Positions 27,365 to 48,863 of a stretch of 48,863 nucleotides of DNA are shown piece after piece. This DNA is from a virus. The stretch is taken from the IMG/VR virus record IMGVR_UViG_3300005541_000004, positions 1-48,863 of that record; one strand, given 5' to 3'. The translations under genes were made by a program, and so were the position numbers. The notes beneath the pieces are model-generated. The model ran no database searches. It saw nothing but the letters and a program-made list of their open reading frames with translations, and was not told where the DNA came from. The stretch's first letter is position 1; each line of letters starts with the position of its first letter.

Positions 27365-27822
27365 CCCTTATTTTTCCTCCTTCTCTCTTTCTGTTGTTCA
27401 TTATGACAAGAGGAACAATAACGTTGCCATATAATTTTACCATCTCTTTTTCTTCTCCTAAGTCTATATGGCCCTTTACATTTAGGGCAGCACTCTTTTC
27501 TAGCATTATTATGAACTCCATCTCTAACTTGATCTTTTACATTGTCTGATATAGTTCCTGGACGTAGATGGTCAATAAAGAAGCATCTTTTATCACATCC
27601 TGTACTATGCCTAGCATCCCAAGACTGATCGTGATAATCTAGATTATAATGAATGGCTACTACTAATCGATGTAATTGATAAACTATCCCCTGTATCATT
27701 ATAGGAGTGTATCTATTCTCAGTCGGCCTATTAATGGGAAGATGACAACCATTCTCGTTTATTATTTTTGGTATCATTCTTACCCAATCTCTATTAGCAT
27801 CTGATAACTTCATATGTTTCAT
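27361..27822 (-). CDS. HNH homing-type endonuclease (copy 1)
   Basis: This is a 153-aa protein. The HNH core reads ARHSTGCDKRC, IDHLRPGTISDNVKDQ, with paired Cys and a His-x-x-x-x-Gly-x-x-x-x-Asp-Asn pattern, as in free-standing HNH homing nucleases. A C-terminal zinc ribbon (CPKCKG, then CSSC) and a basic tail follow. It is inserted directly after the polymerase gene (ATGA overlap) and is paralogous to the protein at 32300. HNH genes of this type spread by cutting near their own insertion site in related phages. Confidence 0.8.
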   Translation of the reverse strand: MKHMKLSDANRDWVRMIPKIINENGCHLPINRPTENRYTPIMIQGIVYQLHRLVVAIHYNLDYHDQSWDARHSTGCDKRCFFIDHLRPGTISDNVKDQVRDGVHNNARKECCPKCKGPYRLRRRKRDGKIIWQRYCSSCHNEQQKERRRKNKG

Positions 27823-30281
27823 ATCTTCACTTTGTGAAAGTCTCCGTAATGAGTGTCACTCACCTCGATGTCTGCTGGGATTTTCAATCTATAATCTCTC
27901 TTTAGAGAGCATTGATTGAAGTCTATTTCCTTCTGCATATTCTCCCTTAATAGCCTTGCGAATGGTTCCCAGTTATTCTTAGGAGCTTCAATAACTAAAG
28001 CATCATGAGCTTCGACTAAAAATGTAGCTTCTCCATTAAATTCTCTATCTGAGTTGACTGCGGCATTTTGAACTAAATGAGCCACAGTTCGTTGCGGAAT
28101 GTTTGCATATGCTTCCTTATAAATTTCATCATCCATTCTGGCATTAAAAATTCTGATACCAAAAAAAGGATCAATAAGCATACGAGTGGAATCAATTGCA
28201 TCCTTAATGTCTTGATGAAACTTGTTTTTGATTTTAGGGCTAGCTGCATGAAAGAGTTCAAGTAGTTTCCCTGCTTTCCACTCGCTTATTTCCATAGGAA
28301 TATCATATTTCTGTGCATTTATATTAAACTCATTCATAAGTCTATGCTTGCCCATATTGTAATTTCCTGCATGTCTAATCATCTTGCCGGTGAACCTCTC
28401 TGGTCCATCCTTCGGAAGATTATCTACTATCTCATCTTTAAAATCTACTGATAACTCTAGCTTACTTGTATATCCGAACATGAGAGCCGCAGTGCGCCTA
28501 TGAATGTCTACTCTATCGAATGCTTCTAATAGTTTCCAATCTTCTGCTAATACTGCCACGACACGAGCCTCTGCTTGACTTGCATCAACTTGGACGAATA
28601 TCATTCCTTCTCGTGGAATAAACATCGAACGAATATCTTTAGCCAACCGACCATGTTTGGATATTGTATGGAAAGCTAATCCGATCTTCTTGGGCCTTAG
28701 CGGCTTCTTTAATATTCCTGTTGATGACCTGCAAGTTTCAGTAGCTATAATGTTGTATGCTGATTTACAAGTTAAGTCGTAGTCTGGACTAAAGTTAATC
28801 TGTCTACTTTTCTGGTCGCGGATTCTCCTCTCTTCTAAGACATCTTTTAGAATCTCTTTCTGTTCTTTTTTCTTACAAGAACTTAATAATGCAATAATTG
28901 AATCTTCTGATGTTGGGTCTCGTTTTCTAATCTTAAATTTGAGGATTCTATATAACAAATTGAAGACTTGCGGGTATGACTTCACATTTATATCATCTCC
29001 TATAGCAGTAGTCAATCTCTCATGAACAATATTCTGCATCTCAGTATATTTCTTCTTGAGTTCCTTCTGCTTCTCTAAGTCTATCCTAAAGCCCATATTT
29101 TGCATCTTTAGATAGAACTTATGCCGAGGCATGATAAAATTGTAATAATAGTCTCTTAGCGGCACACTGTATTTTTCAGACAGCTCATCTAAATCATTTT
29201 CTTGTTCTTCATCTACTTCGAATTCGACTGCGCAATCTCTAGCATTGTATGTAAGAAGTTTATCAAATTTGACTTTTCCGAGTTTAAATTCTTTACCATC
29301 ATCTTTGTAATAGGGTTCTCTAGTCCATAAACTGCTAACCACGCACAATCGCTTGTCTGGAAGTTCTGGAAAGATAACTCTAGTTTTAATGAGTGTGTCG
29401 CTGTAGACTCGTGGGCATTTGAAACCGATAAGACTAAGTTTATATTCGTCGTACATGAAGTTATGACCAATGATTCTGACTCTTCTGAGCTGCTCATCAA
29501 TCATCCTCCAGCATTCATCCAATTCATTATCGCCCATATCAGTTAGTTTGGTCTGTCCAATTTGCCTTAGAAGTGGAATAGATATCGCATGAGAGCGATT
29601 AAATGAGAAGCCTACGCACACCGGGACACAATTAATAGACTCAATGTCCACTGCGGCTTTATCCAGCTTCTCATATTCTCTAAAGAATCGATGCAATTCA
29701 AGACTATTGTGAATCACTTGGAGGTGTCTTTCTGGCAAAACTATTTCAGAACTTAATGACTCCTCAGCGGCTCTAATAATATCTGCCTGTATTAATTTAG
29801 TATAAACCCAACTCAATCCTCCACTCGTATCGCCTTCGACTCCATGAGAGAAGAGAGCTGCTGGATGAATAGTTGGAACACATTTTGTTATTCCATCTTT
29901 TGCAAGCAATATAGAGCCGCGATAGTTGAGAATACCAGTGACGGCACAAACAGCCTGTAAGGCAACATCACCAACGGCAAGAATACAATTAGGATGAAGG
30001 ACGTTAATTTCATTTGTCCAAAGCTCTTCGATACTCTTTTCTAGGCTAACGTCGATAAGATGCAGTTTTTTGAGATCATTGTAAGGAGGTCTGTATTTGA
30101 TAACGTTAGTGATATAACAGTCAGAGCGACGTATTCCAGCTTTGAATAGAAAGTCATCAAGAAGCTGACCAGTAGGACCGACAAATGGAATACCTTGCTC
30201 ATCCTCATTCTTTCCGGGACTTTCTCCTATGATCATTAATTTTGGCTCTACGGAGCCTATTCCTCCAACATAATTAGGCAC
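27819..30281 (-). CDS. polA: UDG-like domain fused to family A DNA polymerase
   Basis: This 820-aa protein carries three modules. Residues about 10-175 form a family 4-like uracil-DNA glycosylase domain (IIGESPGKNEDEQGIPFVG at 17-35, TIHPAAL at 137-143); the N-terminal CxxC of iron-sulphur UDGs is absent. Residues about 205-360 form a 3'-5' exonuclease (Asp212/Glu214, Asn274/Asp278, Tyr345/Asp349). Residues about 380-820 form the polymerase, with motif A FVQVDASQAEAR (Asp566), motif B in KMIRHAGNYNMGKHRL (633-647), and motif C EAHDALVIE (His759-Asp760). All catalytic positions look intact. It starts at GTG (TAGTG junction). SPO1-type phage polymerases have a similar UDG-like N-terminus. Confidence 0.88.
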   Translation of the reverse strand: MPNYVGGIGSVEPKLMIIGESPGKNEDEQGIPFVGPTGQLLDDFLFKAGIRRSDCYITNVIKYRPPYNDLKKLHLIDVSLEKSIEELWTNEINVLHPNCILAVGDVALQAVCAVTGILNYRGSILLAKDGITKCVPTIHPAALFSHGVEGDTSGGLSWVYTKLIQADIIRAAEESLSSEIVLPERHLQVIHNSLELHRFFREYEKLDKAAVDIESINCVPVCVGFSFNRSHAISIPLLRQIGQTKLTDMGDNELDECWRMIDEQLRRVRIIGHNFMYDEYKLSLIGFKCPRVYSDTLIKTRVIFPELPDKRLCVVSSLWTREPYYKDDGKEFKLGKVKFDKLLTYNARDCAVEFEVDEEQENDLDELSEKYSVPLRDYYYNFIMPRHKFYLKMQNMGFRIDLEKQKELKKKYTEMQNIVHERLTTAIGDDINVKSYPQVFNLLYRILKFKIRKRDPTSEDSIIALLSSCKKKEQKEILKDVLEERRIRDQKSRQINFSPDYDLTCKSAYNIIATETCRSSTGILKKPLRPKKIGLAFHTISKHGRLAKDIRSMFIPREGMIFVQVDASQAEARVVAVLAEDWKLLEAFDRVDIHRRTAALMFGYTSKLELSVDFKDEIVDNLPKDGPERFTGKMIRHAGNYNMGKHRLMNEFNINAQKYDIPMEISEWKAGKLLELFHAASPKIKNKFHQDIKDAIDSTRMLIDPFFGIRIFNARMDDEIYKEAYANIPQRTVAHLVQNAAVNSDREFNGEATFLVEAHDALVIEAPKNNWEPFARLLRENMQKEIDFNQCSLKRDYRLKIPADIEVSDTHYGDFHKVKI

Positions 30282-31412: not shown

Positions 31413-32303
31413 TCAAACTTTCCAATTGGTTGCTGGTGGTTGTCGATTAAAAGGATTAACTTTAGATGCTTGCGGCTCTTCTTGTTGTATTGGTTTGTTT
31501 TCAACTCCTCTCGATTTATCTATGAGTTCTTTCCACACTTGATAAAATAACTTCCCAGTAATATCAAACTCTTTTACAAAATCTCCTAACAGGGGGCTCT
31601 TGGCATATTCATCTCCTACTGCTTCTGTGTTTACGATGTATTTTTTACTTGCTCCTTTCTCCGAATAGTCACTTTGCTGTGAGAAATGATAAATTTCAGT
31701 GAAACTTCCTGGAATGATACTAGCAACTTTACTACCGTAGCTCACTATAGAATTTGAACGAGTAACTCTCATTGAATTGCCAGAGCCGGAAAGTGATACA
31801 GTTGCAAGCGGGTGAGCTGTCCATATCGTATGGCATGGCAGTTTCCGGCTTAAATCAATACACTGACTAACCATGCTGGTTTCTACCTTGTACTCATCCC
31901 AATCTGGTAATACATCTTTTATCTTCTTTGCCATCTTTCTATCTTTACCGAAATTCAATGACCAATTCACACATGCCGCAGTCATGAATGTAATTGAATC
32001 GTTGATAACTGCAAAATATCTGCAATCATCGCGCATGTCAATTAACTTGTTTAGATAAGCGTTAGCATTCTCTGAGCTGTAGACATCATATTCGATGTTA
32101 TCTAAAATCTTTTTTGCCAATGAGCCAAAGCGTTTTTCCGTGAAGAATGTAGTTAATTCGACTGGAGAAGACTTATCCCAATATGATAAGTATACAGGTC
32201 CTTCAACAGCGAATGATGCTGCGGCAATTGTCTTACCAAATCCTGGACTAGATTTGAATAGAAAGGATATGTTTCTACTTGGAGATATTGAGGATGCTTT
32301 CAA
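31413..32303 (-). CDS. Sak4-like RecA-fold ATPase (recombinase)
   Basis: This is a 296-aa protein. Walker A is SSPGFGKT (residues about 17-24) and the Walker B-like strand is YFAVINDSITF (about 97-107). Size, fold and the neighbouring SSB-like gene match Sak4 single-strand annealing proteins of phages. It would promote annealing or recombination during replication. It starts at TTG, overlapping the HNH stop (TTGA), with an AAGGAAAAAG ribosome site. The C-terminus ends with NPFNRQPPATNWKV, similar to a motif in the 239-aa protein at 39178. Confidence 0.7.
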   Translation of the reverse strand: MKASSISPSRNISFLFKSSPGFGKTIAAASFAVEGPVYLSYWDKSSPVELTTFFTEKRFGSLAKKILDNIEYDVYSSENANAYLNKLIDMRDDCRYFAVINDSITFMTAACVNWSLNFGKDRKMAKKIKDVLPDWDEYKVETSMVSQCIDLSRKLPCHTIWTAHPLATVSLSGSGNSMRVTRSNSIVSYGSKVASIIPGSFTEIYHFSQQSDYSEKGASKKYIVNTEAVGDEYAKSPLLGDFVKEFDITGKLFYQVWKELIDKSRGVENKPIQQEEPQASKVNPFNRQPPATNWKV

Positions 32304-32776
32304 TTTCTTTTTCCTTTTGCTCTTCTAGTTCTTCTTTGTTCTTCTGCGCAACTAAAACATCTTCTCTCAACACTCCTCTTTTTCATTCCATATCTATCTC
32401 TTTTTCTTATAACATTTCTAAATGGTCCTCCACATCTGGGACATACTTCTTTTCTAGCATTTACATCTGTACCATCTCTTATTCTATCCTTTGCATTATC
32501 CGAATCACTACCAGGTTCTATATGTTCTGGATTAAAACAAAACTCATTACTACATTTATGTCTAGCTACAATTTTATAGTTCATATAATCAATACTATTC
32601 CATAAGCACATGACTAACCTACTTAATACATATCTACAACCATTTATCATGACTTGGGTATGTCTATCATAGGCAGAGGCATATTTGTATTTCCAACACT
32701 CATTATCAACTATAAATTTATCTAGAGATAATATATAATCTTTATCTATCTTACCTTTATATATCTTCCTCGCCAT
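32300..32776 (-). CDS. HNH homing-type endonuclease (copy 2)
   Basis: This 158-aa protein has ARHKCSNEFCFNPEHIEPGS followed by DNAKDRIRDG, a full HNH core. The C-terminal zinc ribbon (CPRCGG, then CFSC) and an Arg/Lys tail align with copy 1 at 27361. The start lies 20 bases inside the preceding gene and its stop overlaps the TTG start of the Sak4-like gene. The two copies flank recombination and polymerase genes, as homing nucleases often do. Confidence 0.8.
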   Translation of the reverse strand: MARKIYKGKIDKDYILSLDKFIVDNECWKYKYASAYDRHTQVMINGCRYVLSRLVMCLWNSIDYMNYKIVARHKCSNEFCFNPEHIEPGSDSDNAKDRIRDGTDVNARKEVCPRCGGPFRNVIRKRDRYGMKKRSVERRCFSCAEEQRRTRRAKGKRN

Positions 32777-36176: not shown

Positions 36177-38777
36177 TCATAATCTCCAGGCATTTTGACC
36201 ACGTGTGACTAGAATCTCCGCTAATTCTTTCATCAAAGACTGCTGATTCCACACTATTTCTTGATTGTCCATCGTCGCCGCTATTCTAGCTCTTTTAATT
36301 TCTACTAGCTCCGTTAGATACTCGTCGATAGTGCCAGCCGCGATCATATATGTAATCGACACATTGTTTTGCTGTCCGAAACGATGAAATCGGTCCTCAG
36401 CTTGTTCTTCTCTTACCGGCGTCCATTGACGTTCTAGAATTACCGCATCACTACAGAATTGCAAGTTAATTCCTTCTGTAAAGATGCATAGCATGATTCT
36501 ATTCTCAGGAAGTTTAAACTTGTCTATTACTCTCTGTCTATCATCTCCCGGCAAGCCGGCGTGTAATACACAAACTTTTGGAAATCCTCCATCCTTCATG
36601 TATTCATTGAGTTTCAATTCTATCATTCCCATCACATCTTGGTGGTGAGTGAAGATTACGAGTTTGCGGTCTGTTGATAGAAGAAACTCTGTAGCGAAAT
36701 CAACTACTTCAACAACCTTACTTCGTCCAGTGATATGCCGCATCTTAGACATGATAGCGATTTTCGGGTCTTGTGGACCATAGTCACCGGCATCGTTGTA
36801 GAATGAAGCCTCTAATTCTTTCATCGCAGCGGCATACTCTTTATTCAGATTCCTATTCAATTCTACGTGATGGTATTTCCGCTCTTTGCTTGGCAAGTCT
36901 TTAAGAACTTCGCTCTTTGTCCGACGAATGATTAAATTCTTTATATCTTCGTGGAATTTGTCTTTGTCTTTCAATCCGCCATATTTGTTCGCCCATCCAT
37001 TGCTATACGAGTCAACATAGTTGTCAATATATCGCTGGAAATGGGGGAATAGCATTGGTGCGACTAGGTTTAGAACGGTATAATACTCTGCGGCATTATT
37101 GCTTATTGGTGTCCCGCTCATTGGTAGAATGTGTTGAATATCTTGATTTCTTACTAGCTTCCGGACCGCTTTCGCCCTATCAGAAAGATGATTCTTAATC
37201 TTCTGACATTCGTCGATTATCAGTGTCTTAATCGTATTCGGCGGAAGATACTCAAATAAATCATCTGTCTTGAGAATATCGTAGGTTACTACGTAAATGG
37301 AGAAGCCTGGCATTGCTCTTTCTTTGCCGCTTGCAATGACTTGTGTAAGAAACGTCTTATCCTTTGCTCCATTGATTGCACAAATTCTGTGTATCTCATG
37401 CATCCATTGAAGCTTGACTGTTGCTGGGCATACTATTACACACGGTAATAGCTTCTCAGGATGCAATCTGAGTAACGATGCTGACTCGATTGTATTGTGT
37501 GTGACAATGCAATTATTCGTGATATAGAGTCTACTAGGGGAATTTACAGAAATACAACGAACTGGCTCAACTGATACTAGCTCTATACTCTTAATAGACC
37601 TTACTGGTTTATACTTAGTATTTGGATGCCACTTGCTTGCTTTACGACTGAGCCTAAATGGATTGACTGGAGAGTTAATTACAATTCGGTATGCTAATTG
37701 ACCTTTACGCTTCTCACCTTTGTATGTAAAGGTTGGATGCTTAAATGTAATTTTAACTGTCCCCCCTAAAGATTCTACTAGAAATCGTACATCTTTGGAT
37801 AATTGCTCGGAGACTGTTGTATATTCAGTTACTCCATTTTTCCAGATGCTTCCATCTGTATCCATCAATCCTTTGAGGATTTCTGTTCTAATTTCAATAG
37901 TGTTATATAGATATGCTGGTGGGATGAATTTCGATTCGGACTTATGTCCATAAAGCCCCAACTTAATTATATCATCACTATAGTCTCTTTCAAGAAAGTA
38001 TACTCTAGAGTTTTCGCTATTCTGCTCACTTCTACGTATAACTGGAAATGCGTCTGCTATTTCCTTATCTCCAGATACGAAACTTACTTGATATTGCGTA
38101 AGATTCCCATCTCCTATCAATACACCTAACTGATAGGCATCTATTGGAATCTGTCTAATTGGGAATTGAATTGCTTCAGTTGTTGGAATGAATAGATACT
38201 CTCTGCCAGATTTCCAATCTTTAGTTAATCTTTCATATAGGACATTTGTCTGTATTGTCTTATATGGTTTATTCCTATTCCTATCATTATGAGACTGAAC
38301 AGACCATAGATGTTCTCCGTCTACTGTTGCAAACGTTCCATCTGCAAACTCTACTTTATAGACTGGTAGAACCCCCCTATCATATACTCCAGTTATCTGA
38401 TAGATTTTTCCATCATTGCTAAATACATCATCACCAATTTTAATATCTTCAAATGTTTTGAATCCGTTTGGAGTTAAGATTGTATCAGATAGAATCTGCC
38501 CCTTGCCCAAACCTTGCTCATCTGCGATAATACATCGCATGTTCGAGTCTTCAGCAAATCTAATAGCTTCAATCTGATACGGTCGCGGCTTTCCTCCGTC
38601 TGAGAATACGATAGACTCGTATGCCGCATCGGTCGTCTTCTTCAGAATAGCCGATTTAATGACATGTCCACAAGCTAGTGTGATTCTTAGCTGAGTGCCG
38701 AATTTGATTCTAGACTTCTCAACAGCAATTTTCTTGCACTCTGGACATTCTTGGCGCAGGATACTAGTTAATGCCAT
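36177..38777 (-). CDS. SNF2-family DNA helicase/translocase interrupted by an intein
   Basis: The precursor is 866 aa; after splicing 530 aa remain. The N-terminus has CPECKK and CGH, a possible zinc finger. The helicase motifs are DEQGLGK/T (motif I, split by the intein), CPATVKLQW (Ia), LIIDECQKIKN (II), MSGTPISNN (III), LVIFTHHQD (IV), TEGINLQF (V) and AEDRFHRFGQ (VI). These are the SNF2/SWI2 set. In phages such proteins remodel protein-DNA complexes or assist recombination and replication. It overlaps its upstream coiled-coil neighbour (TGATG). Confidence 0.88.
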   Translation of the reverse strand: MALTSILRQECPECKKIAVEKSRIKFGTQLRITLACGHVIKSAILKKTTDAAYESIVFSDGGKPRPYQIEAIRFAEDSNMRCIIADEQGLGKGQILSDTILTPNGFKTFEDIKIGDDVFSNDGKIYQITGVYDRGVLPVYKVEFADGTFATVDGEHLWSVQSHNDRNRNKPYKTIQTNVLYERLTKDWKSGREYLFIPTTEAIQFPIRQIPIDAYQLGVLIGDGNLTQYQVSFVSGDKEIADAFPVIRRSEQNSENSRVYFLERDYSDDIIKLGLYGHKSESKFIPPAYLYNTIEIRTEILKGLMDTDGSIWKNGVTEYTTVSEQLSKDVRFLVESLGGTVKITFKHPTFTYKGEKRKGQLAYRIVINSPVNPFRLSRKASKWHPNTKYKPVRSIKSIELVSVEPVRCISVNSPSRLYITNNCIVTHNTIESASLLRLHPEKLLPCVIVCPATVKLQWMHEIHRICAINGAKDKTFLTQVIASGKERAMPGFSIYVVTYDILKTDDLFEYLPPNTIKTLIIDECQKIKNHLSDRAKAVRKLVRNQDIQHILPMSGTPISNNAAEYYTVLNLVAPMLFPHFQRYIDNYVDSYSNGWANKYGGLKDKDKFHEDIKNLIIRRTKSEVLKDLPSKERKYHHVELNRNLNKEYAAAMKELEASFYNDAGDYGPQDPKIAIMSKMRHITGRSKVVEVVDFATEFLLSTDRKLVIFTHHQDVMGMIELKLNEYMKDGGFPKVCVLHAGLPGDDRQRVIDKFKLPENRIMLCIFTEGINLQFCSDAVILERQWTPVREEQAEDRFHRFGQQNNVSITYMIAAGTIDEYLTELVEIKRARIAATMDNQEIVWNQQSLMKELAEILVTRGQNAWRL
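37494..38501 (-). other. Class 3 intein with LAGLIDADG homing endonuclease
   Basis: Residues 93-428 (336 aa) interrupt the Walker A loop between Lys92 and Thr429. The intein starts with Gly rather than Cys or Ser. Block B contains DGEHLW (Trp158), block F has VRCISVNSP (Cys408) and the C-terminal splice site is VTHN followed by Thr. Trp, Cys and Thr are the WCT signature of class 3 inteins, which form a branched intermediate on the internal Cys. The middle carries the dodecapeptides LGVLIGDG (217-224) and LKGLMDTDG (301-309), both with the acidic residue kept, so the homing nuclease may be active. Confidence 0.85.
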
Positions 38778-40623: not shown

Positions 40624-41013
40624 CTAGCTTCTCCTATAACACGAAGTGGACGGCGCCTTTGGCGAGCGATTGTCGAAACAAATGAAATAGTGAATGTGAT
40701 TCTTTACGTATTTAATGCTGTAATACCAGGCTGGATAACTAATAACATTATGACAAAGACAGCAACGAATCTTTGCTGGATGTATTGCTTCTATAGTAGT
40801 TGGCTGTGAGATAATTAAACTAAATTTCTTAGAAATATGAGACTGTAGTCTAGGTTGGCCAGAGGCTAGATTTAAAATGTGAGCTAATCCGCCTCTACCG
40901 TAGTTTCCCATTACTCCAGATATAATATGTATCACTTTAGCTTCTTCTATTGTAGCTGAACCAGATAAACTAATTCTGTCTAGTATTTCTTGTTGCTCTT
41001 TTTCGTCTAACAT
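40624..41013 (-). CDS. First gene of leftward operon, Cys-rich hypothetical protein
   Basis: This 129-aa protein has a helical N-terminal half (LDEKEQQEILDRISLSGSAT). The second half has a CCLCHN and a later ICFDN, a possible zinc site. It starts 153 bp downstream of a strong leftward promoter (-10 at 41166-41171). The 5' leader is GC-rich and could be structured. As the first leftward gene it is likely expressed early. Confidence 0.6.
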   Translation of the reverse strand: MLDEKEQQEILDRISLSGSATIEEAKVIHIISGVMGNYGRGGLAHILNLASGQPRLQSHISKKFSLIISQPTTIEAIHPAKIRCCLCHNVISYPAWYYSIKYVKNHIHYFICFDNRSPKAPSTSCYRRS

Positions 41014-41165
41014 AGTTTGACTCTTTCGCGTTTCCTGTCGCTACCACGGGCCAGGCTGTGCAGGGGTGCTCCACCACGTTCCGGCGTATCGGGAGAAGTC
41101 TGTAAGTCGTTGCGCGTGTTGGAGTTGTGGCTTGTTCGTGGCATGGTCTGGTTCTGTCTACCTCT

Positions 41166-41194
41166 ATCCTAGCATAGTGGGGGGTGGATGTCAA
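41166..41194 (-). promoter_or_regulatory. Leftward sigma70-like promoter for the replication operon
   Basis: On the minus strand TTGACA (41189-41194), 17 bases, TAGGAT (41166-41171). The -35 is perfect and the spacing optimal. It points into the 41013-to-24611 gene block. The element overlaps the outer arm of the nested palindrome, linking transcription of the replication genes with that structure. Confidence 0.7.
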
Positions 41195-41333
41195 GGGGTA
41201 TCTGTGTCCTCTTTTGGGGACAGTCTTCTCTTCTTCTCTTATATATAATAATATATATAAATAATAATAAAAAATATATAAGAGTGTATAGAAAAGAGGA
41301 CACGAAAAAGACTAAAACCCCCACCCCCCTACT
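41176..41333. other. Nested inverted repeats around an AT tract, candidate replication origin
   Basis: Three pairs of arms share nearly one centre (about 41254-41260). Outer: AGTGGGGGGTGG (41176-41187) with CCACCCCCCTACT (41321-41333), one gap. Middle: GTGTCCTCTTTT (41204-41215) with AAAAGAGGACAC (41292-41303), 12 of 12. Inner: CTCTTATATAT (41236-41246) with ATATATAAGAG (41274-41284), 11 of 11. The centre is almost pure A/T. It lies between the leftward replication block and a rightward unit. An origin or a dual-control site is the likely role. Confidence 0.55.
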
Positions 41334-41514
41334 TTGAGGTAGGGAGCCAGACAGAAATGGGAAAACGCCAGCAAACCCCTGCAAACATTGGCGCTTGTGC
41401 GTTTTTCGGACGTTCGCCCGCCTGATTTTGGGAGCCCGGAGTGTGCGAAAATTGGGGCGAAAACGTGGAAGAACGTGAATTAGTGTTCGACACCTAGCAG
41501 GCTGGAAAGACTAC

Positions 41515-41543
41515 TTGACAAATGCAGAATTTTATGTTACTAT
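41515..41543 (+). promoter_or_regulatory. Rightward sigma70-like promoter 1
   Basis: TTGACA (41515-41520), 17 bases, TACTAT (41538-41543). A perfect -35, ideal spacing and 4 of 6 at the -10 make it a strong candidate. It lies 160 bp upstream of the 171-aa gene. A reading frame that appears to start on this TTG is therefore not taken as coding. Confidence 0.75.
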
Positions 41544-41616
41544 TATTTTGTTGGAGAGCGAGTCGAGCGACCGAAAAGCTTGGCAGAAGAAACGGAGCGA
41601 CTTACAAAATGAGTGC

Positions 41617-41645
41617 TTGACAAACGAGCTAGAACGTGATACACT
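41617..41645 (+). promoter_or_regulatory. Rightward sigma70-like promoter 2
   Basis: TTGACA (41617-41622), 17 bases, TACACT (41640-41645). This is a second strong match 102 bp after promoter 1, only about 60 bp before the ATG at 41704. Tandem strong promoters suggest high early expression of the gene that follows. Confidence 0.72.
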
Positions 41646-41703
41646 TTACTTGTTGGTTAAGACGACCGACAAACGGAAACGCAGACCGAAAGAGAGACAC
41701 AAA

Positions 41704-42219
41704 ATGAGCGAACAGAATCCGACTCCGGCAGAGATTGCAGCGAAGGAAGCGGCCAAGAAGGCAAGAGAAGAGGCAACGGCGGCGAAACAGAAGCTTGCCG
41801 ATGCAGAGAATGCTACTCGTTCTGGAATGGGCACAAGGCAAGTAGTTGGAACGACTCGCGGACGGAATACTGTTCCATTCATTTACGAAGCTTTTTCTGG
41901 TGATTTCGCTGATAGTCTTCCGAAGTCTGTTGATGATTTCCTGGGTTTCACGAAGCTGGATGGGGACAATCCACTAGTTGTGACCTATTTGATTGAAGGT
42001 TACAATTCAATCAGTGAGAGCAACGGAAGCGACCCGCTCAATGAGTATATTGACTCAACCTGGCCGGAAGATGTTCAGAAGCGTTTCAAGGTGGTCATTC
42101 GGAACTACTCGCAGGATTCCAACATGTCAATTGAGGATACTGTTGATTTGCTTCGGGATGGTATTGTGAAAGGGATTCAGGCTAAGCTGGCTGCTGAAAA
42201 GGCTTTGCAGCCTGCGTAG
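41704..42219 (+). CDS. Strongly promoted 171-aa protein, probable early factor
   Basis: The ATG at 41704 has an AGAGAGACACAAA leader. The first about 40 residues form an Ala/Lys/Glu helix (coiled coil), followed by a charged alpha/beta region (SGDFADSLPKSVDDFLGFTK, then EDVQKRFKVVIRNYS). No family is recognised. It stands alone between two strong promoters and a terminator. Its base use is richer in G and C than its neighbours. It could be an abundant early protein acting on the host or a DNA-binding protein near the origin. Confidence 0.65.
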   Translation: MSEQNPTPAEIAAKEAAKKAREEATAAKQKLADAENATRSGMGTRQVVGTTRGRNTVPFIYEAFSGDFADSLPKSVDDFLGFTKLDGDNPLVVTYLIEGYNSISESNGSDPLNEYIDSTWPEDVQKRFKVVIRNYSQDSNMSIEDTVDLLRDGIVKGIQAKLAAEKALQPA

Positions 42220-42233
42220 ACCATTACTGAAGA

Positions 42234-42364
42234 GGGTTTAATACCCGAAAACCGCTAGAGAATATCCTAGCGGTATAATGGATAGCTTGTCAGGCTCGTT
42301 GCAGGTCTGGCAGCGCCTATGAAGCGACTTAGCAACTATCGACTTAGCAACTAGACTTCATAGG
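42234..42364 (+). ncRNA. Structured 3' region: three hairpins with tandem 15-bp repeats
   Basis: After the 171-aa gene come a small hairpin (GGGT with ACCC, 42234-42246), then ACCGCTAG with CTAGCGGT (42251-42274, 8-base loop). Next is a 9-bp stem, CCTATGAAG (42316-42324) with CTTCATAGG (42356-42364). Its loop consists of two copies of CGACTTAGCAACTA plus one base (42325-42339 and 42340-42354). The region ends at the terminator. It could be a small RNA or a stable mRNA 3' end. Confidence 0.5.
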
Positions 42365-42372
42365 TAGAATCG

Positions 42373-42417
42373 AAAATGGCCCGCTCTTAAGTAGCTACTA
42401 AGAGTCGGGCCATTTTT
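42373..42417. terminator. Bidirectional intrinsic terminator
   Basis: AAAATGGCCCG, one base step, CTCTTA pairs with TAAGAG, one extra T, CGGGCCATTTTT across a short loop. The stem is long and GC-rich with a T run on the right and an A run on the left, so it can stop both strands. It separates the rightward 171-aa gene from the leftward three-gene microprotein operon. Confidence 0.85.
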
Positions 42418-42421
42418 AGTT

Positions 42422-42553
42422 TTAGTTGTAATAGACAGATTGAACCTGGCGCTTGATTTGGAGGAGTAGAGCTAGTCTGATAACTTCGTTCACTTCGGCT
42501 TCAGTCATTAGAACCTTCCAGACTCCGTTGTTAAGAATTTCAAAGTTTGACAT
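42422..42553 (-). CDS. Microprotein 3 of leftward mini-operon (43 aa)
   Basis: The ATG at 42553 follows the previous stop by one base, with GGAGAGG in the coding end as ribosome site. The product begins MSNFEILNNGVWKVLMTEAE and has a helical rest (EVIRLALLLQIKRQVQSVYYN). It ends five bases before the terminator. The function is unknown. Confidence 0.6.
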   Translation of the reverse strand: MSNFEILNNGVWKVLMTEAEVNEVIRLALLLQIKRQVQSVYYN

Positions 42554-42554
42554 T

Positions 42555-42707
42555 TCAATCCTCTCCCAAAGAGATATGCTGCGCAATGTGCCAGCTATCA
42601 TCAGGCAGATGGGAGAGATAACTAATTGCGTACCGTGAAGCTTTCGCGTAAGACTTGAATGGTCCGTAAGTATACCATTCATTTTGATAGACAACAATCA
42701 TCCACAT
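42555..42707 (-). CDS. Microprotein 2 of leftward mini-operon (50 aa)
   Basis: The product starts MWMIVVYQNEWYTYGPFKSY and is rich in Tyr, Trp and His (DDSWHIAQHIS). The frame is open up to 42800, but that would overlap microprotein 1 and lacks a ribosome site, so the ATG at 42707 is preferred. Aromatic, compact, possibly a protein-binding inhibitor. No family is recognised. Confidence 0.55.
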   Translation of the reverse strand: MWMIVVYQNEWYTYGPFKSYAKASRYAISYLSHLPDDSWHIAQHISLGED

Positions 42708-42721
42708 TTTACACTTCGCTC

Positions 42722-42829
42722 TCAGCGTAATAAGTAGCTGTGACCGTTCTGAAGCCGGAAATACACTTCTGGATTGCGCGTGACGCGAGCAACGATGCAT
42801 TCAATCTCGACGATACTTAAGACTCTCAT
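42722..42829 (-). CDS. Microprotein 1 of leftward mini-operon (35 aa)
   Basis: The ATG at 42829 has a TAGGAGTG ribosome site and lies just downstream of a strong promoter. The product is MRVLSIVEIECIVARVTRNP followed by 15 residues ending YLLR. It has two strand-like stretches. Too short for family assignment, but the ribosome site and promoter support it. Confidence 0.55.
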   Translation of the reverse strand: MRVLSIVEIECIVARVTRNPEVYFRLQNGHSYLLR

Positions 42830-42848
42830 AAATCACACTCCTATACTT

Positions 42849-42877
42849 ATAGTAGTGCTAGCCGGATTCGGTGTCAA
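42849..42877 (-). promoter_or_regulatory. Leftward sigma70-like promoter of microprotein operon
   Basis: On the minus strand TTGACA (42872-42877), 17 bases, TACTAT (42849-42854). The -10 is the same as in rightward promoter 1. It is 20 bp upstream of the first microprotein start. Confidence 0.75.
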
Positions 42878-42984
42878 GTCTTTTCTTTCTTTTTCTTTAG
42901 CCGGCGAAGCCGGAAATCTAGTGACCCCCAGGCATACCCCACCGATATATAGTGGATGTTAAATAGTCTTACAGTGCGGCTATT

Positions 42985-43014
42985 CGTCTCTGACTAAAGC
43001 GTCTCTGACCAAAG
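42985..43014 (+). repeat. Tandem 15-bp direct repeat
   Basis: CGTCTCTGACTAAAG (42985-42999) is followed directly by CGTCTCTGACCAAAG (43000-43014), one mismatch. It lies in a non-coding stretch upstream of the late promoter. It may bind a phage regulator or replication protein. Confidence 0.65.
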
Positions 43015-48412: not shown

Positions 48413-48863
48413 CGGCATAATTTCTTCTGATCCAGGAAATGGATTCTTTGAGGATTTCGTTTCTGAGAAGAATATTAAACCACATCCAGTTCAGGAAGCA
48501 CTCTTATCACTTCCAGATCAAATCTTTGAGGCACTTTATGGAGGAGCCGCCTACGGCGGGAAGAGTTGGATTCTTACTCTATTACCTTTATTCAGAGGGT
48601 TCTATAAGTTTAGAGGATACAAAGGTATTATCTTTCGAAGAAAGTTCCCTGATCTTGAAAGAGAAATTATTCGACTTAGCAAGGAATATTATCCAAAAAC
48701 AGGAGCAAAATACAATGAGCAAAAGCACTCCTGGGAATGGCCAGAATACAATTCTTATCAAGACTTCGGACACGTCCAACACGACACAGACATCGTAATG
48801 TATGACTCTGCTCAATATAACTACTGCTCTTTTGATGAACTCACTCATTTCAGCGCTCACCCA
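48393..48863 (+). CDS. terL: Terminase large subunit, N-terminal part (continues at base 1)
   Basis: The ATG at 48393 opens the frame that continues through the join; bases 48744 onward repeat 1-120. The Walker A motif is GGAAYGGKS (residues 50-58) and RRKFPDLE follows, as in phage TerL ATPase domains. With the part at 1-1344 the whole protein has 564 residues. The start lies within the previous small gene. Confidence 0.9.
   Translation, partial: MGISVANGIISSDPGNGFFEDFVSEKNIKPHPVQEALLSLPDQIFEALYGGAAYGGKSWILTLLPLFRGFYKFRGYKGIIFRRKFPDLEREIIRLSKEYYPKTGAKYNEQKHSWEWPEYNSYQDFGHVQHDTDIVMYDSAQYNYCSFDELTHFSAHP
48744..48863. repeat. Terminal direct repeat, right copy
   Basis: These are the same 120 bases as 1-120. 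Removing one copy yields the 48,743-bp circle. The repeat is inside terL, so it is best read as assembly overlap of a circular or permuted genome. Confidence 0.95.

Follow-up and report, generated by a model that had tools for sequence, protein, structure and literature searches.

Is the in-frame segment of 1008 nucleotides, free of stop codons, that parts the two halves of the Walker A loop in a phage helicase gene an intein, if so of what class and with what further activity, and is there anything out of the ordinary in its being there? The gene lies in a viral contig of 48,863 nucleotides, the whole of which was analysed and is here called the window. Our answer, to which we give a probability of about 95%, is that the segment is a full-length class 3 intein carrying a LAGLIDADG homing endonuclease and inserted between Walker A Lys92 and Thr429 of an SNF2-family helicase. 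As set out below, such an intein at such a site is far from new.

An insert that close relatives lack

The outer parts of the 866-aa ORF match the Pfam families PF00176 (SNF2-rel_dom, 1.6e-29) and PF00271 (Helicase_C, 6.4e-11), and the ORF matches phrog_62, DNA helicase, in PHROG (1.6e-75), by which the SNF2 helicase host proposed in the initial annotation is borne out. The host thus has an SNF2 ATPase and a Helicase_C domain. Its Walker A loop is split by the insert, reading ...IIADEQGLGK / GQILSDTILTPNG ... SRLYITNNCIVTHN / TIESASLL..., and is intact (GLGK+T) when the insert is removed. The features are collected in Table 1.

Table 1. Features of the helicase-intein gene, with positions in the window
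Feature	Position	Strand	Basis or remark
Precursor ORF, SNF2-type helicase plus intein	36177..38777	-	866 aa
N-extein, aa 1-92, C-terminal end is Walker A ...ADEQGLGK	38502..38777	-	contiguous with C-extein in L001-L004
Intein, aa 93-428, 336 aa, GQILSD...IVTHN	37494..38501	-	empty sites, PDB and Pfam matches, model
Gly93, intein position 1, no Cys/Ser/Thr nucleophile	38499..38501	-	boundary fixed by empty sites
Block B: His156 (B:10), Trp158 (B:12)	38304..38312	-	alignment of inteins
LAGLIDADG homing endonuclease domain, approximate, intein residues 114-297	37611..38162	-	range aligned to I-Tsp061I 2dch (Z 14.2), PF14528
First LAGLIDADG motif LGVLIGDG, catalytic Asp223	38106..38129	-	alignment
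Second LAGLIDADG motif LKGLMDTDG, catalytic Asp308	37851..37877	-	alignment, PF14528
Cys408 (block F:4), predicted initiating nucleophile	37554..37556	-	alignment of inteins
Block G: Thr426 (G:5, T of WCT), His427 (G:6), Asn428 (G:7)	37494..37502	-	alignment
Thr429, +1 residue and Walker A Thr	37491..37493	-	empty sites, alignment
C-extein, aa 429-866, first residues TIESASLL	36180..37493	-	contiguous with N-extein in L001-L004

A scan of IMG/VR yielded four contigs, all viral (L001-L004), that encode the same helicase, with identities over the 530-aa host of 88% (L001), 86% (L002), 63% (L003) and 63% (L004), and whose flanking DNA is also homologous to that of the window with the order mostly kept. 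In all four the residues that flank the insert are directly adjacent, ...ADEQGLGK/TIE..., and no related intein was found anywhere in their records. The comparison with intein-free homologues that the initial annotation had put forward as a check therefore gives the exact junction, and its placing of the intein at residues 93-428, with GLGK split from the Thr, is correct in coordinates and in residue numbers. As a separate observation, the intein-free helicase gene of L004 (2336-3925) has one in-frame stop at a position where L003 has Trp (NTG*GAKYGG), for which sequencing error, a broken copy and recoding are candidates.

Could the segment instead be a lineage-specific domain normal to SNF2 helicases and retained in the mature protein? 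That the ORF is in frame would fit such a domain, and nothing further does; its exact absence from close relatives, the separation of the Walker A Lys from the Thr that it would entail, the predicted HINT plus LAGLIDADG fold of the segment and the presence of the same kind of element in unrelated P-loop proteins all speak against it. A normal SNF2 insertion, ruled out by the four empty sites, we regard as next to inconceivable. By sequence comparison the insert is confirmed as a real intein and not a chance pattern.

Which class of intein?

Class 3 inteins are defined by the lack of a first nucleophile together with Trp at B:12, Cys at F:4 and Thr at G:5 (WCT), and their +1 residue is usually Ser or Thr (PMC5222942, PMC3196547, PMC7664689). 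The residue set is complete here: Gly93, His156, Trp158, Cys408, Thr426-His427-Asn428 and, at +1, Thr429. The initial annotation had noted the missing first Cys/Ser, position 1 indeed being Gly, as well as the block B Trp and block F Cys, both of which are present and near invariant among 172 aligned inteins. As to the Thr that it placed at +1 and counted in the class 3 signature, the +1 residue is Thr as said, but the Thr of WCT is Thr426 (G:5) and not Thr429.

Of the 172, one is the window intein, nine come from phage records with annotation, 82 from IMG/VR and 80 from genome contigs of bacteria or archaea. Because the scan patterns contained VTHN and GL[MLC]D[TSG]DG, they themselves account in part for how uniform THN and the second LAGLIDADG Asp are; no such bias touches His156, Trp158, Cys408 or the first LAGLIDADG Asp. 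His156 and Cys408 occur in 172/172 and Trp158 in 171/172; Thr426 is likewise in 172/172, and His427 and Asn428 are near invariant, though all three are partly selected for by the VTHN pattern. The WCT set is kept in all but one of the 171 relatives (again with its Thr partly pattern-selected), and the +1 residue is Thr in 152 of them and Ser in 18. Position 1 across the alignment is Ala in 122, Gly in 16 and Ser in 11. The sole aligned intein without Trp at B:12 (L062, 3001-4134) has Phe there by alignment and an SNF2-like host.

By sequence, the nearest solved structures are the class 3 DnaB inteins 6rix (E 2.3e-12), 6riy and 6bs8 (E 1e-9), which rank ahead of the class 1 intein gp41-1 among the PDB matches. 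In the window there was no match to Pfam Intein_splicing (PF14890), and no ncbifam intein model matched; as the HINT part has diverged from what those models describe, these misses are not counted against an intein. Were the intein of class 1 or 2 and its WCT residues a coincidence, the fold, common to all inteins, would be the same, yet Gly at position 1 excludes class 1 by residue, the full WCT triad is accompanied by the +1 Thr and class 3 inteins are the nearest relatives. Assignment to class 1 or 2 is ruled out by the residues, and the odds we leave it are very small indeed. The class 3 reading holds on the sequence, on the empty sites and on structure prediction.

The predicted nested endonuclease

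An AlphaFold2 model of the intein, built with 48 aligned sequences, has pLDDT 95.2 and pTM 0.93. The model aligns with PI-SceI (Z 26.4, 320 residues, 3.3 A), an intein that splices and homes, and its splicing domain superposes on the class 3 Msm DnaB intein 6bs8 with Z 19.9 and rmsd 1.5 A (over the Msm and Mch DnaB inteins, Z 19-20, 1.5-2.1 A and 29-32% identity). The model leads one to expect a full HINT domain in which a LAGLIDADG domain is nested, and the insert matches Pfam LAGLIDADG_3 (PF14528). Both homing-nuclease motifs keep their acids, Asp223 and Asp308, just as had been claimed.

Does the nuclease still cut? One or both of the LAGLIDADG acids have been lost in 25/172 aligned inteins, decay being thus frequent in the family, and the absence of any close intein-bearing relative among those found would also suit an intein that still splices while its homing endonuclease no longer cuts DNA. 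In the window intein, however, neither acid has been lost and the nuclease fold, as predicted, is intact, and the AT-rich composition suggests a fairly recent arrival, so that loss of cutting, at perhaps one chance in four, is the less probable state. An apparent stage of nuclease loss is seen elsewhere, in the class 3 intein of a Mesorhizobium phage helicase (L015, 2115-2936), whose nuclease region is shortened and lacks both acidic residues.

Relatives and precedents

Close relatives of the intein alone are scarce: the scan gave only L005/L006 (40%), and no intein-bearing relative above about 44% identity was found. More distant relatives are plentiful: 772 records in the annotated phage collection match the window intein, and in 564 of them the match covers 80% or more of the intein. 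By a simple pattern, 141/171 relatives follow a G..GK-like motif and precede T/S. Against a profile started from the window helicase, the host is clearly SNF2-like (E < 1e-100) in at least 36 relatives; at E < 1e-60, a level at which some other helicases start to appear, 56 have a host matching the SNF2 profile, 18/56 being from bacterial genome contigs. In a tree made by a quick method from very divergent rows, SNF2-hosted inteins cluster beyond chance (24 changes, against 47.8 when shuffled); in the same tree, which covers these relatives, the window intein falls in no starred clade and is not securely placed.

The combination of class 3, an apparently intact nuclease and an SNF2-like host had been thought worth recording. 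Actually, it has a precedent of long standing in the Snf2 intein of Deinococcus radiodurans (Dra Snf2), for which splicing was demonstrated in 2002 (Southworth and Perler, as cited in PMC11219805) and the class 3 mechanism in 2010 (Brace et al., as cited in PMC3196547). The cloning primers printed for it in PMC7664689, where its nested endonuclease domain was deleted, when translated here start at LGK/AQ and end at THN/TLQ. On the evidence of these later citing papers and printed primers, it resembles the window intein in its SNF2 helicase host, in the same Walker A K/T point, in class and in having a nested endonuclease, and differs in residing in a bacterial chromosomal gene instead of a phage one and in starting Ala-Gln where the window intein starts Gly-Gln.

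Other systems share fewer features. The mycobacterial DnaB mini-inteins (Msm 6bs8, Mch 6rix) have the WCT triad and the splicing-domain fold, but a DnaB host and no endonuclease. Full-length class 3 inteins with a nuclease after Walker A GK, at 34-36% identity, occur in the SNF2-like gp233 of PhiPA3 (L008), an uncultured phage (L007) and an Erythrobacter phage (L010); the phages are other ones, and the hosts are P-loop proteins, the helicases being divergent. In Salmonella phage SETP3 (L009) a 'putative intein containing helicase' of SNF2 type appears to have its intein placed after GSGK. The similarity of that insert to the window intein is weak (23%), and its initial Cys makes class 1 probable. 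For an intein, the position between P-loop Lys and Thr has been termed a 'classic' P-loop insertion in a paper that also reports, from mycobacteriophages, class 3 inteins as well as homing endonucleases that are functional (PMC5050341). With dozens of SNF2-like hosts in phages and bacteria found here, the case for a noteworthy combination falls away: inteins of this kind, at this site and in enzymes of this kind, have been on record for years and are frequent in phages and bacteria, and the window example is an ordinary one.

Proposed splicing, homing and arrival

Following the established class 3 route (PMC5222942), the gene would be translated to an 866-aa precursor in which Cys408, helped by His156, Trp158 and Thr426, would attack the Lys92-Gly93 bond to give a block F branched intermediate. 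The N-extein would be transferred to Thr429, Asn428 would then cyclise, the exteins would be joined as a 530-aa helicase and the 336-aa intein would be freed. The free intein, acting as a nuclease, would cut the GLGK-T coding site where it is unbroken, in relatives free of the intein, and its gene would then be copied into them. Splicing with Cys408 as initiator, the order of these steps and DNA cleavage we infer from the biochemistry of the family. In 45 bases on either side, the unbroken sites of L001 and L002 share with the window 35/45 and 33/45 upstream and 31/45 and 28/45 downstream, and as they differ at several codon positions cleavage of those alleles is not assured.

Since the Walker A loop (GLGKT) is split in the precursor and regained in the mature helicase, ATPase activity should depend on splicing. 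Might splicing then be conditional, for instance on redox at Cys408 or on binding of ATP or DNA by the helicase, and so serve as a post-translational helicase switch instead of the intein being a neutral passenger? We consider this improbable, at long odds. The intein has a G+C of 0.358, where the N-extein has 0.446 and the C-extein 0.412, and a GC3 of 0.262 compared with 0.435 and 0.413, respectively. The low GC3 and the intein-free relatives suggest a fairly recent arrival from elsewhere by homing.

Other features of the contig

Bases 1-120 are identical to 48744-48863, from which the contig appears to be circular, of about 48.7 kb. The gene for the terminase large subunit runs across the join (48393 to 1344) and is continuous, about 565 aa once the overlap is removed; it has no intein. 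An 820-aa ORF (27819-30281, minus strand) fuses a uracil-DNA glycosylase domain (residues 8-145) to a family A DNA polymerase (residues 405-789). Adjoining the gene for a Sak4-like annealing protein (31413-32303) is that for a free-standing HNH endonuclease (32300-32776, minus strand), which matches five PHROG HNH/endonuclease families and is possibly a second homing element. At 41001-43000 the G+C rises to 0.45-0.48, compared with about 0.39 around it.

Significance

By itself the window intein opens no new question. It adds one clean example to the class 3 inteins of phages that bear a nuclease, one for which related phages without the intein are available for comparison, and this is in keeping with a published proposal that inteins of class 3 had their origin in phages and spread there.
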